64,000 nt of DNA from Sphingopyxis sp. (GTDB taxonomy: Bacteria; Pseudomonadota; Alphaproteobacteria; Sphingomonadales; Sphingomonadaceae), in the NCBI GenBank assembly GCA_030148985.1, contig JASBSJ010000039.1:1-64000 (forward strand), in the 5' to 3' direction. The stretch's first letter is position 1, and each line of letters begins with the position of its first letter. The notes beneath the pieces were generated by a model. The model ran no database searches and had not been told where the DNA came from. It was given only the letters and a program-made list of their open reading frames with translations. Of the stretch, positions 11,120 through 62,043 are shown one piece after another. A program made the translations under genes and the position numbers.

Positions 11120-11210
11120 CGTCGCCCCCGCGAAGGCGGGGGCCGATGTCGGTTTACTCGGCATGGAAGGGCAAGGCCGATGACGGCCCCCGCCTTCGCG
11201 GGGGCGACGG
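11120..11210. repeat. Palindromic repeat, family A
   Basis: The arms CGTCGCCCCCGCGAAGGCGG and CCGCCTTCGCGGGGGCGACG form a near-perfect inverted repeat. The repeat ends one base from the pdhB stop codon and reaches almost to the start of the phytoene-synthase-like gene. Other copies are at 12241, 17854, 36724 and 61967. Confidence 0.9.
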
Positions 11211-11211
11211 A

Positions 11212-12609
11212 TTAACGATGGAGAACCGCCTTCACCGCCTTCGCCACCCGCGGGGTGTCGATCAGCGCGGCCTTTTCGAGATTGTTCGCGTAGGGCAGCG
11301 GCACATCCTCGTTGCACACGCGCATGACGGGCGCGTCGAGATCGTCAAAACCCTGTTCCATCGCGACCATCGCGAGTTCGCTGGCGATCGAGCAAACCGG
11401 CCAGCCTTCCTCGACAATGACGAGGCGGTTCGTCTTTTTAAGGCTGGCGAGCACCGTCGCGGTATCGAGCGGGCGCAAGGTGCGCAGGTCGATCACCTCG
11501 GCGTCGATGCCCTCACCCGCAAGGCTGTCGGCGGCTTCGAGCGCGAGCCCGACGCCGATCGAATAGCTGACGATCGTGACGTCGCTGCCTTCACGCATGG
11601 TGCGCGCCTTGCCGATCGGCAGGACGAAATCCTCGACATCGGGAACCTCAAAGCTGCGGCCATAGAGCAGTTCGTTTTCGAGGAAAACGACCGGGTCTTC
11701 GGTACGGATCGCCGCCTTCAGCAACCCCTTGGCATCGGCGGCGTCATAGGGCGCGATGACGATCAGGCCGGGGACGCTCGCGTACCAGGGTGCATAATTC
11801 TGGCTGTGCTGCGCGCCGACGCGCGCCGCGGCGCCGTTGGGCCCGCGGAACACGATCGGGCAGCGCATCTGCCCGCCCGACATATAGTTGGTCTTTGCCG
11901 CCGAATTGATGATGTGGTCGATCGCCTGCATCGCGAAGTTGAATGTCATGAACTCGATGATCGGACGAAGGCCGCCCATCGCCGCGCCCGCACCGAGTCC
12001 GGCAAAACCATATTCGGTGATCGGCGTGTCGATGACGCGGCGCGCGCCAAATTCATCGAGCAGGCCCTGGGTCACCTTGTAGGCGCCCTGATATTCGGCG
12101 ACTTCCTCGCCCATCACGAAGACGCGGTCGTCGGCGCGCATCTCCTCCGCCATCGCGTCGCGCAGCGCTTCGCGGACGGTGAGCTTGACCATCGCGGTGC
12201 CCTCGGGGATCGCGGGGTCGGAGGCGCGTTCGGCCTTCTCCGTCGCCCCCGCGGAGGCGGGGGCCGCTGGAACCGACTCACTAACGCTAGCGGCCCCCGC
12301 CTTCGCGGGGGCGGCGTCCTTTTCTTCAGCGGCAGCAGGCGCGGGCGCCGGAGTCGACGCCTCCTCCCCCTCACCCGCGATCGTCGCGATCACGGTGCCG
12401 ACCTTCACATTATCGGTGCCTTCGGGAACGAGGATCTGGCCGATCGTTCCCTCATCGATCGCTTCGAATTCCATCGTCGCCTTGTCGGTTTCGATCTCGG
12501 CAAGGATGTCGCCCGACTTCACCGTGTCGCCTTCCTTGACGAGCCACTTGGCGAGCGTGCCTTCTTCCATCGTCGGCGACAGCGCCGGCATCTTCAGTTC
12601 GATGGCCAT
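11212..12609 (-). CDS. pdhB: Pyruvate dehydrogenase E1 beta with N-terminal lipoyl domain
   Basis: A 465-residue protein. Residues 1-78 are a lipoyl domain with the lipoylation site K43 in [11 protein letters not shown]. An Ala/Pro/Glu linker (about 79-135) leads to a transketolase-like E1 beta domain (about 138-465: [51 protein letters not shown]). The lipoyl-on-E1beta layout is typical of alphaproteobacteria. With PdhA it decarboxylates pyruvate and reductively acetylates lipoyl groups. Residues 98-123 of the linker are encoded by an in-frame family A palindromic repeat. The start is [17 protein letters not shown]; the upstream extension lies within pdhA. It begins one base after the pdhA stop region. 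Confidence 0.96.
12241..12316. repeat. Family A palindrome inside the pdhB coding region
   Basis: The left arm (12241-12268, starting CGTCGCCCCCGCGGAGGCGG) and right arm (12289-12316, ending TTCGCGGGGGCGGCG) match as reverse complements at 26 of 28 positions. The repeat is the same family as the intergenic copies at 11120, 17854, 36724 and 61967. It lies fully inside pdhB and encodes, in frame and without a stop, Ala/Pro-rich residues 98-123 (AAPAKAG...AAPASAGAT) of the linker. Confidence 0.92.
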
Positions 12610-13798: not shown

Positions 13799-13925
13799 AA
13801 GCCCCTCCCCTTCAGGGGAGGGGTTGGGGTGGGGTCCATCGGCCTTGCGCAAGGCCGATGAACCCCACCCGATGCGACTAGCGAACAAGTTCGCAAGTCT
13901 CGCTGCCCTCCCCTGAAGGGGAGGG
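13799..13925. repeat. Composite palindromic repeat, family C
   Basis: Terminal hairpins (CCCCTCCCCTTCAGGGGAGG at each end) enclose a central palindrome ATCGGCCTTGCGCAAGGCCGAT and a one-sided motif GCGACTAGCGAACAAGTTCG. The one-sided motif is the reverse complement of that in the 31921 copy, so this copy is inverted. It fills the ftsB-pdhA gap. Confidence 0.88.
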
Positions 13926-17853: not shown

Positions 17854-17943
17854 CGTCGCCCCCGCGAAGGCGGGGGCCGCCGGAACCCTTGTCCTGCATT
17901 GCTGCGTAAACCGGCAGCGGCCCCCGCCTTCGCGGGGGCGACG
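17854..17943. repeat. Palindromic repeat, family A
   Basis: Inverted arms CGTCGCCCCCGCGAAGGCGG and CCGCCTTCGCGGGGGCGACG are separated by an asymmetric centre of about 35 bp. It lies between two convergent genes (DUF4170 and the NDUFS4-like gene) and could serve as a bidirectional transcript end, but it has no U-tract. Confidence 0.9.
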
Positions 17944-23259: not shown

Positions 23260-23295
23260 GGGCGGGGGCTGCCCGGATGTAAACCTATATTCCAT

Positions 23296-23373
23296 CGTCA
23301 TCCCGGCGCAGGCCGGGATCTCGCCGGTGCGTCAATTCGATAGGGTGAGATCCCGGCCTTCGCCGGGATGACG
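23296..23373. repeat. Palindromic repeat, family B
   Basis: Arms CGTCATCCCGGCGCAGGCCG and CGGCCTTCGCCGGGATGACG surround a centre containing TCTCGCCGGTGCGTCA and GGGTGAGAT. The copy at 50530 has the same centre. It sits between convergent genes (GST and esterase). Confidence 0.9.
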
Positions 23374-23413
23374 GAGTAGGGAGAGCGCATCCCCTTACCT
23401 CCATGCCCCACCC

Positions 23414-28801: not shown

Positions 28802-29189
28802 CATTCTCTCCCGACGGCGAAAGGTGCAGGGGGCGCCTGCCCCTGTCAATGCCGCTGCGACGCGATGAAAATGGCGGTTTGCAATTGCCGCTACGGCTGC
28901 CAGCCTTCGCTCCATGCAAAAATTTTGTGGCCGTGCTCACCCGCCTCTGCCCCGTCGCGGCGCGGCCGGAAACGGCTGGGTCCGCTTTCGACCGGTAGTT
29001 GCCGTAAGGAAAAGCCAGCCCCTCCTCTTCAGGGGAGGGGCAACGAAGACTTGGCGGCTTGCTGCCTAGTCGTAGTGGGGTGGGGTTTATCGGCGTTGCG
29101 CGAGGCCGATAGACCCCACCCCAACCCCTCCCCTGAAGGGGAGGGGCTTAGGCGACCGCGATGTCAACTCACCACCCCAAAGCCGCCCA
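28802..29189. other. Intergenic region between MFS and SDR genes
   Basis: The 388 bp hold no coding sequence I can support. The first half is the upstream region of the MFS gene, and 29017-29149 is a family C repeat. Confidence 0.7.
29017..29149. repeat. Composite palindromic repeat, family C
   Basis: Terminal blocks CCCCTCCTCTTCAGGGGAGG and CCCTCCCCTGAAGGGGAGGG enclose the one-sided motif (AGACTTGGCGGCTTGCTGCC) and a central GATAAACCCC-like palindrome. It has the same orientation as the 31921 copy, but the one-sided part has drifted more. Confidence 0.85.
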
Positions 29190-31920: not shown

Positions 31921-32051
31921 AAGCCCCTCCCCTTCAGGGGAGGGCAGCGAGACTTGCGAACTTGTTCGCTAGTCGCAGCGGGTGGGGTCCATCGCCCTTG
32001 CGCAAGGCCGATGGACCCCACCCCAACCCCTCCCCTGAAGGGGAGGGGCTT
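31921..32051. repeat. Composite palindromic repeat, family C
   Basis: Terminal hairpins CCCCTCCCCTTCAGGGGAGG and CCTCCCCTGAAGGGGAGGGG flank the one-sided motif GCGAGACTTGCGAACTTGTT and the central palindrome GGGTCCATCGCCCTTGCGCA with its partner. It begins five bases after the uvrC stop and ends 19 bases before the thioesterase start. Confidence 0.9.
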
Positions 32052-36723: not shown

Positions 36724-36801
36724 CGTCGCCCCCGCGGAGGCGGGGGCCGCTGGCAACCTTGCGCTACATCGATAGCGGCCCCCGCCTCCGCGGGGGCGAC
36801 G
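36724..36801. repeat. Palindromic repeat, family A
   Basis: Arms CGTCGCCCCCGCGGAGGCGG and CCGCCTCCGCGGGGGCGACG are perfect reverse complements, extended inward to CCGCT/AGCGG. It lies between the convergent lysR-type gene and beta-lactamase-like gene. Its left arm is identical to that of the copy inside pdhB. Confidence 0.92.
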
Positions 36802-50240: not shown

Positions 50241-50529
50241 GGTGACTTCGCTGTTGATCAGGCCGGGTTGGGTGATCGGCCCGATCGGGCCAGAGGTCGC
50301 GAAGTGGTTCCAAAGTTCAGTAAAGGTCAGCCTTGCGCGTCGTCCTGGTTGGGCCGCTCCGGCGTACAATGCCGCCCAGAGTCTTGCGCGCACCCGTAGG
50401 TGTGCCACATCGCTTTTGTCCACATATGGAAAGGACCGTGATCAAGGCTGGCACAGCCGGGCTATGTAGGACAGCGCTTTTTCGTGGCAGATGTCCGACT
50501 TGGGGTGGATTCCTGGCCTTCCTTATTCG

Positions 50530-50605
50530 GCATCCCGGCGAAGGCCGGGATCTCGCCGGTGCGTCAGGACGAGAGGGTGAGATCCCGGCCTTCGCCGGGA
50601 TGACG
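50530..50605. repeat. Palindromic repeat, family B
   Basis: Arms GGCATCCCGGCGAAGGCCGG and CCGGCCTTCGCCGGGATGAC enclose a centre (TCTCGCCGGTGCGTCA...GGGTGAGAT) shared with the copy at 23296. Confidence 0.9.
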
Positions 50606-50649
50606 ACGATAGAAATGGCTGCTTTCGGTCGGAACGCGGCATTCTATAA

Positions 50650-60653: not shown

Positions 60654-61958
60654 ATGGCCCGCTATTCATTCCGCCTGCCCGACATTGGCGAAGGCATCGC
60701 CGAAGCCGAGATCGTCGCCTGGCACGTCAAAGTGGGCGAGCGCGTCGAGGAAGATGCGCAGCTTGCCGACATGATGACCGACAAGGCGACCGTCGAAATG
60801 GAATCGCCGGTGTCGGGGGTCGTCGTTGAACTGGCGGGCGAGGTTGGCGACCTAATCCCGATCGGATCGACGTTGGCGGTGATCGAGACCGATGCGGATG
60901 GGGACGGCACGGTCGATGCGCCGCCTGCCGATACGCCGGTCGAGGAAGAGATCGTCTCGGAGACGCCGGGCGCCGAGGAAGCATCTGTCGCGGAGGTGGC
61001 GCCACCCCCCGAACCCGTTCGTGCTGAGCTTGTCGAAGCACCGTCCTTGCCTTCGAAGAACAGCCCTTCGACAAGCTCAGGGCAAACGGCGCATGGGAAG
61101 TCGGTTCTGGCATCGCCCGCCGTCCGCGCTCGCGCCAAGGATCTCGGTGTCGATCTCAGCCAGGTGCAATCCGGCGGCGACCGCATCCGCCACGCCGACC
61201 TCGATGCCTTCCTGCGTTACAGCGCGGGGCAGGGCTATCACGCCCCCGGTGCGAGCCGCGCGCGCGCCGACGAACCGATCAAGGTCATCGGGATGCGCCG
61301 CAAGATTGCCGAGAATATGGCGGCGTCGAAGCGCGCGATTCCGCACTTCACCTATGTCGAGGAAATGGACGTCACCGCGCTGGAAGACATGCGCGCGGAC
61401 CTTAACGCCAACCGCGGCGGGCGGCCGAAGCTGACGATGATGCCCTTCCTGATCGTCGCGATCTGCCGCAAGATCCCGCAATTTCCGAGGATCAACGCGC
61501 GCTATGACGACGAGGGTGGCGTGGTGACGCGTTATGGCGCGGTGCATCTGGGCATGGCGACGCAGACCGACGCCGGGTTAATGGTTCCGGTGATCCGCGA
61601 CGCGCAGGACATGAATGTCTGGCAGCTCGCAAGCGAGATCACGCGCCTTGCCGAAGCCGCGCGCACCGGGAAGGCGAAGGTCGAGGAGCTGACCGGCGGC
61701 ACGTTGACCGTCACGTCGCTTGGGCCGCTTGGCGGCATTGCAACGACGCCGGTGATCAACCGGCCCGAGGTGGCGATCATCGGGCCGAACAAGATCGTCG
61801 AGCGCCCGGTGTTCGACGGTGACGACATACGGCGGGCGAAGCTGATGAACCTGTCGATCAGCTGCGACCACCGGGTGGTCGATGGCTGGGATGCCGCGAG
61901 CTATGTTCAGGCATTGAAGAAGCTGATCGAAACGCCGGTATTGTTGTTCGCGGATTGA
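60654..61958 (+). CDS. bkdB: Branched-chain 2-oxoacid dehydrogenase E2
   Basis: A 434-residue acyltransferase. Residues 1-78 form one lipoyl domain (lipoyl Lys K44 in MMTDKATVEME). A variable Pro/Glu linker (79-150) precedes a peripheral E1/E3-binding domain (about 152-190, ASPAVRARAKDLGVDL) and a catalytic domain with the CoA-acyltransferase motif DHRVVDG near the end. Residues 121-146 of the linker (PVRAELVEAP...SSGQTAH) are encoded by an in-frame family F repeat. No dihydrolipoyl dehydrogenase gene follows; E3 must be elsewhere. Confidence 0.95.
   Translation: MARYSFRLPDIGEGIAEAEIVAWHVKVGERVEEDAQLADMMTDKATVEMESPVSGVVVELAGEVGDLIPIGSTLAVIETDADGDGTVDAPPADTPVEEEIVSETPGAEEASVAEVAPPPEPVRAELVEAPSLPSKNSPSTSSGQTAHGKSVLASPAVRARAKDLGVDLSQVQSGGDRIRHADLDAFLRYSAGQGYHAPGASRARADEPIKVIGMRRKIAENMAASKRAIPHFTYVEEMDVTALEDMRADLNANRGGRPKLTMMPFLIVAICRKIPQFPRINARYDDEGGVVTRYGAVHLGMATQTDAGLMVPVIRDAQDMNVWQLASEITRLAEAARTGKAKVEELTGGTLTVTSLGPLGGIATTPVINRPEVAIIGPNKIVERPVFDGDDIRRAKLMNLSISCDHRVVDGWDAASYVQALKKLIETPVLLFAD
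61015..61089. repeat. Family F palindrome inside bkdB
   Basis: Left arm CCGTTCGTGCTGAGCTTGTC (61015-61041) and right arm GCCCTTCGACAAGCTCAGGG (61063-61089) match as reverse complements at 22 of 27 positions. Intergenic repeats of this type (GTTCGTGCTGAGCTTGTCGA) are common in sphingomonad genomes, from memory. Here it lies in frame in bkdB with no stop. Confidence 0.85.
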
Positions 61959-61966
61959 TTTGAACC

Positions 61967-62043
61967 CGACGCCCCCGCGAAGGCGGGGGCCGCTGGCCAC
62001 CTTGCGCAAGGCCGATGGCGGCCCCGCCTTCGCGGGGGCGACG
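61967..62043. repeat. Palindromic repeat, family A
   Basis: Arms CGACGCCCCCGCGAAGGCGG and CCGCCTTCGCGGGGGCGACG surround a central CACCTTGCGCAAGG. It lies nine bases past the bkdB stop and six bases from the stop of the convergent surface-protein gene. Confidence 0.9.

Follow-up and report, generated by a model that had tools for sequence, protein, structure and literature searches.

In a REPIN, two oppositely oriented REPs flank a spacer; such elements are associated with GTAG REPs and RAYT. REPs that carry the tag CGTC have an 8-bp stem and a 4-nt loop, occur mostly as head-to-head dimers and lie mostly between genes, with some inside open reading frames (PMC3733652). Across the four described CGTC families the A-T pairs at stem positions 1 and 2 are almost invariable, and most tails fit CCA (PMC3733652). 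Di Nocera, De Gregorio and Rocco (2013) reported intragenic GTAG and CGTC REPs in a set of species that includes Sphingopyxis alaskensis; the accessible part of the text does not state the superfamily of the S. alaskensis copies. Flexible linkers or loops were proposed as sites that tolerate REPs, and in the recB genes of two Xanthomonas different REPs occupy about the same site (PMC3733652). Palindromic elements of Rickettsia are translated in frame inside conserved proteins, and in one enzyme that was tested the element proved neutral to slightly harmful (as far as the accessible parts of PMC2229807 and PMC10969869 tell). Among the best matches in the open-access literature we found no title on repeats in lipoyl linkers, and the accessible part of PMC12306157 contains nothing on intragenic copies.

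Here we analyse a stretch of 64,000 nucleotides (the window) from a Sphingopyxis contig, JASBSJ010000039.1, in which a repeat of this kind is read as protein. The original prediction, made from the letters of the window, held that a palindrome lies in frame within pdhB, at codons 98-123, with the lipoyl and E1-beta domains on either side, and that its arms are those of the copies starting at 11120, 17854, 36724 and 61967. The open reading frame and the Pfam domains bear out the placement (the E1-beta pyrimidine-binding domain, Transket_pyr, begins at residue 142), and the arms are indeed the same. The presence of an in-frame genome repeat in pdhB is confirmed. Its two inverted 28-bp arms flank a 20-bp spacer, a spacing matched by no other dimer in the looser dimer list of this genome. 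Since the repeat, which we call family A, is found both in frame in a conserved gene and between genes, it is an intragenic protein-coding palindrome. The coordinates are collected in Table 1.

Table 1. Features of the pdhB locus and of the related palindromes in the window
Feature	Position	Strand	Details or basis
pdhB, pyruvate dehydrogenase E1 beta with N-terminal lipoyl domain	11212..12609	-	465 aa; ORF, Pfam, homologue names
Lipoyl domain of PdhB	12379..12600	-	residues 4-77; Pfam Biotin_lipoyl
Ala/Pro-rich linker of PdhB	12187..12378	-	~residues 78-141; interval between Pfam domains
CGTC-tagged REP-like head-to-head dimer, family A, arm class A1	12241..12316	-	76 bp, in frame, residues 98-123
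First arm in coding direction	12289..12316	-	tag is CGCC, not CGTC
Second arm in coding direction	12241..12268	-	
Spacer separating the two pdhB arms	12269..12288	-	
Intergenic family A dimer	11120..11209	.	90 bp; 2 bases past the pdhB stop codon
Family A dimer	17854..17943	.	90 bp; non-coding by periodicity test
Family A dimer	36724..36801	.	78 bp; non-coding by periodicity test
E2 subunit gene, named BkdC by inference (2-oxoacid_dh domain)	60654..61958	+	PF00198 match 61269-61949; ORF
Family C palindrome in BkdC lipoyl linker	61014..61088	+	in frame
Family A dimer	61967..62043	.	77 bp; 8 bases past the stop codon of the E2 gene (BkdC)

How does family A compare with the described systems? 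With CGTC REPs it shares the tag, the 8-bp stem, the 4-nt loop and the head-to-head dimers. CGTC stands at the left end of 25 of 26 coding copies and at the right end of 24, as it does in most free dimers; stem positions 5-12 pair with 17-24 around a loop at 13-16, within the CGTC-REP range of 8-9 bp for the stem and 4-5 nt for the loop. The start of the stem and the tail are different. Where CGTC REPs have A-T pairs and a CCA tail (PMC3733652, accessible part), family A has G-C at position 1 (26/26 copies), C-G at position 2 (25/26) and the tail CGC (25/26 coding copies, with CGT in the other). Because of this stem start and tail, we describe family A as CGTC-tagged without assigning it to families 1-4. 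Its likeness to REPIN/RAYT systems lies in the two inverted REPs and the spacer, its tag being CGTC instead of GTAG. Like the Rickettsia elements it is a palindromic repeat read in frame in a conserved protein, but those measure ~105-150 bp, belong to another organism and sit in many unrelated genes, with no single linker class mentioned in the accessible parts of PMC2229807 and PMC10969869.

The repeat is abundant in this genome. The family A arm pattern has 95 matches in the whole assembly (2.94 Mb, 73% complete), and the reversed pattern, which served as control, has none. Could the block in pdhB simply be a palindrome that arose by chance in the Ala/Pro linker of a GC-rich gene? Plain Ala/Pro linkers do yield short inverted repeats, with scores up to 11, but a defined arm with 95 genomic matches against 0 control matches refutes chance resemblance and leaves this explanation with practically no probability. 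In the stretches examined the family is predominantly head-to-head, with 51 dimers to 19 single core matches, a tally that takes in some chance core matches and also four dimers of the CGTCAT type, a form that this genome does contain. The 50 free dimers with full arms in the stretches examined (37 from this genome, G000, and 13 from a relative, G011) measure 78 or 88-91 bp, and the looser dimer list of this genome adds free copies of 77 bp (at 61967) and ~79 bp (L226). Arm matches also occur shortly after pdhB in G011, G001 and G002.

Family A copies were found at 59 places in the stretches examined (47 dimers and 12 singles), and each place was scanned for coding periodicity on both sides. 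Under the full two-sided rule, a strict criterion that copies near the ends of genes could escape, pdhB is the sole place that passes. A copy in Lnt (L232) passed a weaker rule and then proved to have Pfam domains on both sides. Two further places, L240 and L201, have open frames with Pfam domains, yet the copies lie N-terminal to the domains and were not counted as intragenic. CGTC REPs are not known to have a dedicated transposase. A RAYT-type transposase (PF01797, Y1_Tnp) has no match in this genome (G000, at 73% completeness) and a match in 15 of the 80 genus genomes, which lends RAYT no support as the mobiliser here.

Other palindromes were seen in the same window. The segments 13799-13925 and 31925-32051 form an inverted repeat pair of 127 bp, 98% complementary and 18 kb apart, made of GGGGAGGGG-type palindromes, with a partial further copy at 29078. 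The segments 23294-23376 and 50526-50608 are CGTCATCCCGG-type dimers, in the A-T stem form of CGTC REPs, with 92% mutual likeness.

Is the block a fixed part of PdhB? We examined pdhB in 70 of 80 genomes of the genus, the other ten being fragments or not taken. By manual reading of the peptides, 15 of the 70 linkers hold family A, eight hold an unrelated palindrome, family C, and 47 hold neither (five outgroup-like and 42 plain Ala/Pro); the automatic classifier missed L055 (A) and L323 (C). The segment is thus not conserved in all relatives, and since the repeat is abundant elsewhere in the genome, both conditions that the original prediction set for its own refutation fail. Family C, whose peptide reads VRAEPVEAPS...GPSTSSGQT, is a genome repeat as well, its arm occurring in 73/80 genomes with up to 189 matches. 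The load of A1 plus C arms is higher in genomes whose PdhB or PdhC carries an insert than in those without (median 92 versus 21; 30 versus 34 genomes; p = 9e-6, uncorrected for kinship). Outside the genus, the pdhB linker of a Novosphingobium MAG (L105) contains another CGTC dimer; 35 of the 76 outgroup loci L065-L140 were parsed, and L105 was chosen for its peptide, L113 having scored higher.

On a pdhB tree built with the linker left out, family A needs 10 changes, eight of them forced by the starred branches, and family C needs seven, six of them forced; parsimony does not separate gain from loss in these counts, and the bootstrap had not settled. Clustering of the C label on the tree barely exceeds that of shuffled labels (110 of 500 shuffles were as low). 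We aligned 12 pairs of linkers, of which 10 paired near relatives with and without the insert. In these 10 the central part of the linker has been exchanged or shortened and is never simply interrupted, which goes against the clean, precise insertion that had been predicted for some lineages. The wider claim that a palindrome was inserted and kept because the linker tolerates it is therefore sustained in part. The element is a genome-wide repeat, in frame, in an Ala/Pro linker and in some lineages only (15/70 genomes), and a class of such elements is known (PMC3733652); the insertion itself was not seen as a clean event.

The lipoyl linkers of other subunits also hold palindromes. The gene pdhC was parsed in 68 of the 70 loci taken, and manual reading of the peptides gave family A in 18 of the 68 linkers, family C in eight and neither in 42. 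In this strain PdhB holds family A, and PdhC and BkdC hold family C, a different palindrome that the original prediction overlooked in PdhC and, within the same window, in BkdC. The family C arms in BkdC (61024-61038 and 61066-61080) are 15 bp long and fully complementary. A third E2 of this strain, SucB by inference, holds neither palindrome, as judged by eye. Because the repeat in these linkers may be shared, be of another family or be missing altogether, we regard lipoyl linkers as a place where mobile-looking repeats survive in genes; the linker presumably tolerates replacement, which would let one site take up unrelated palindromes from species to species.

A second kind of site is Lnt (apolipoprotein N-acyltransferase), where in this genome a membrane-domain loop contains a family A dimer of 91 bp (L232:1537-1629). 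Elsewhere in the genus this loop may be short or may carry family A, an interrupted A or some other repeat-like peptide. Across the 70 of 80 genomes in which the loop was read, 33 have short segments (61-67 residues) without a repeat-like peptide, two have short segments with a single repeat-like peptide (L276, L277) and eight have segments of 84 residues. Another eight by eye (seven by pattern) carry an unrelated PPRNGEVAARSADGG-type peptide, a putative repeat, and the remaining 19 are intermediate, longer or interrupted. In L247, L253, L255, L256, L257, L264 and L270 the Lnt A element is seemingly interrupted by another sequence, with peptides such as GGGRHVTPDTAA or TAVSGVTRLP; one repeat may here be nested in another within a gene.

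Coding copies differ from free copies in length. The family A copies in PdhB and PdhC that match the peptide pattern number 27, of which 26 are 76 bp long and one is 79; the pattern excluded six of 33 A copies (L042, L050, L055, L344, L362 and L382) as decayed, interrupted or one residue off. None of the 50 free dimers from G000 and G011 is 76 or 79 bp long, the copy of ~79 bp (L226) being confined to the looser list (the length test was run with 49 free dimers; the list holds 50). The pdhB and Lnt dimers are read in the same frame, in which both arms give Ala, Pro and Gly. For a symmetrical dimer, having both arms in this frame requires a length of 1 modulo 3, as in pdhB (76) and Lnt (91). 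Such lengths account for seven of the 50 free dimers, six of 91 bp and one of 88.

The codon in the right loop differs as well. It encodes Ser in 21 of the 27 PdhB/PdhC copies and Phe in four, whereas the base that gives Ser is found in 11 of 125 free arms from G000 and G011 (p = 8e-13, uncorrected for kinship). In most free copies the same codon would read Phe. In Lnt, a membrane protein, Phe is retained in the right loop of five of the seven copies that match the pattern. The p-values overstate the case, since the coding rows are kin to one another and just two genomes supplied the free arms.

What of the arms themselves? At third positions, arms of one class differ by 0.03-0.13, the lipoyl domain by 0.17-0.30 and the spacers by 0.39-0.61; the arms are lower than the lipoyl domain in 90 of 90 pairs. 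Once the classes are pooled, this contrast disappears in pdhB (arms lower in 24 of 55 pairs) and weakens in pdhC (76 of 105). Rows were grouped for this comparison by one arm letter, and one pdhB row (G039) falls in neither group. At six arm third positions, nine of 26 rows read A1 throughout, 12 read A2 throughout and five read A2 with one or two other letters; none of the 26 mixes the A1 and A2 sets. The pdhB arms of G045 are of a further class, A3, in a dimer of 79 bp, and that genome has 41 A3 arm matches (two of them in pdhB) and no A1. In G071 the exact A2 pattern is found just twice, in pdhB and in pdhC, so the donor pool for A2 is not seen in that genome. We consider it probable, with room for other readings, that a CGTC-tagged REP-like dimer is resident in the PdhB lipoyl linker, adapted to the protein, while its arms are still replaced from the repeat pool of the genome.

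Two other histories deserve attention. The first is a single old insertion: early in the history of the genus a 76-bp family A element entered a lipoyl linker, from which it was copied into the paralogous one, and most species now retain plain Ala/Pro linkers as its decayed remains, with family C following a similar course. The PdhB and PdhC copies have in common the 76-bp length and a likeness of their spacers, whose mean best score is 23.0 among themselves and 9.2 against 13 intergenic spacers from G000 and G011 (7.8 when shuffled). This likeness suggests shared descent rather than repeated insertion from the present pool. Seemingly decayed forms exist for both families (L049 for C, L050 for A), and parsimony, as noted, is blind to gain versus loss. 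A single old insertion does not readily account, however, for arm third positions that are conserved beyond the gene within a class, for G045 with the arm class of its own genome and another length, for the alternation of A and C inside supported clades or for the other CGTC dimer in the same linker of L105. As a complete account we think it rather unlikely. Together with later overwriting of the arms, old descent explains the data no less well than fresh insertions over and over would, given the spacer likeness and the A2 pattern of G071.

The second alternative is an exchange of linkers, among species as well as from pdhB to pdhC or back, through homologous recombination across the conserved lipoyl domains. 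The PdhB and PdhC spacers of G011 score 24 against each other, compared with 9.5-16 in the five other genomes with family A in both; in this strain 71 of 80 residues are the same in the two lipoyl regions, and the patchy distribution fits such transfer. To the right of the linker, however, PdhB and PdhC run into different domains, and the same-genome comparison was possible in six genomes only. We regard this route, too, as doubtful, and continue to prefer a resident dimer with replaceable arms.

The original prediction further proposed that the hairpin in the mRNA slows ribosomes between the two domains; a related possibility is that it stabilises the transcript. The RNA segment has a minimum free energy of -65.3 kcal/mol against a shuffled mean of -50.9 (z = -3.64), and none of 200 shuffles was as low, as must be the case for any such palindrome. 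Positions 10 and 19 of the arm covary, and all 26 copies keep them paired. With the exception of a single G-T row, however, these changes occur only between the two arm classes, and the pairs 7-22, 13-64 and 25-52, all at third positions, never switch to another Watson-Crick pair in the 26 copies. For these reasons base pairing is unlikely, as judged from the alignments, to be the selected property. The proposed slowing of ribosomes also fits poorly with the 47 of 70 genomes that have neither palindrome and with third positions that follow two fixed arm classes. We consider retention of the hairpin for the mRNA very improbable.

How might a resident dimer with exchangeable arms have come about? 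REP-like dimers would enter genes now and then, and most would be lost. They would survive in flexible linkers or loops when their length puts both arms in a mild frame. The protein would then select the exposed codons, from Phe to Ser and from Lys to Glu, and a REP subfamily of the genome would overwrite the arms in one piece, with gene conversion as a putative route and fresh insertion as the other. From the coding copies and their free counterparts we infer that the repeat is adapted to the protein yet coupled to the repeat pool of the genome.

The class of intragenic CGTC REPs is already known; it is the patchy, family-switching use of lipoyl linkers that goes further. The accessible text of PMC3733652 does not name PdhB, PdhC, BkdC or Lnt, and arm-class switching, the length class and loop adaptation are absent from it. 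Because the PdhB of S. alaskensis (P0027) carries the insert, its pdhB may be among the intragenic REPs in Additional file 3 of that study.

A broader and more tentative proposal, to which we would give less than even chances, is that the lipoyl linkers of PdhB, PdhC and BkdC are standing acceptors in which unrelated REP families succeed one another, their arms overwritten in block by the current subfamily while the protein edits the exposed codons. If this is true, the sequence of the linker would be set in part by the repeat population of its host and not solely by its own lineage, and alignments or trees through such linkers may reflect repeats instead of descent. A single linker can be tracked here over 70 genomes, alongside its paralogous counterpart, two repeat families and a free population of the same repeat. 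The system lends itself to tests of how mobile palindromes turn into protein and of whether intragenic copies still exchange with copies outside.
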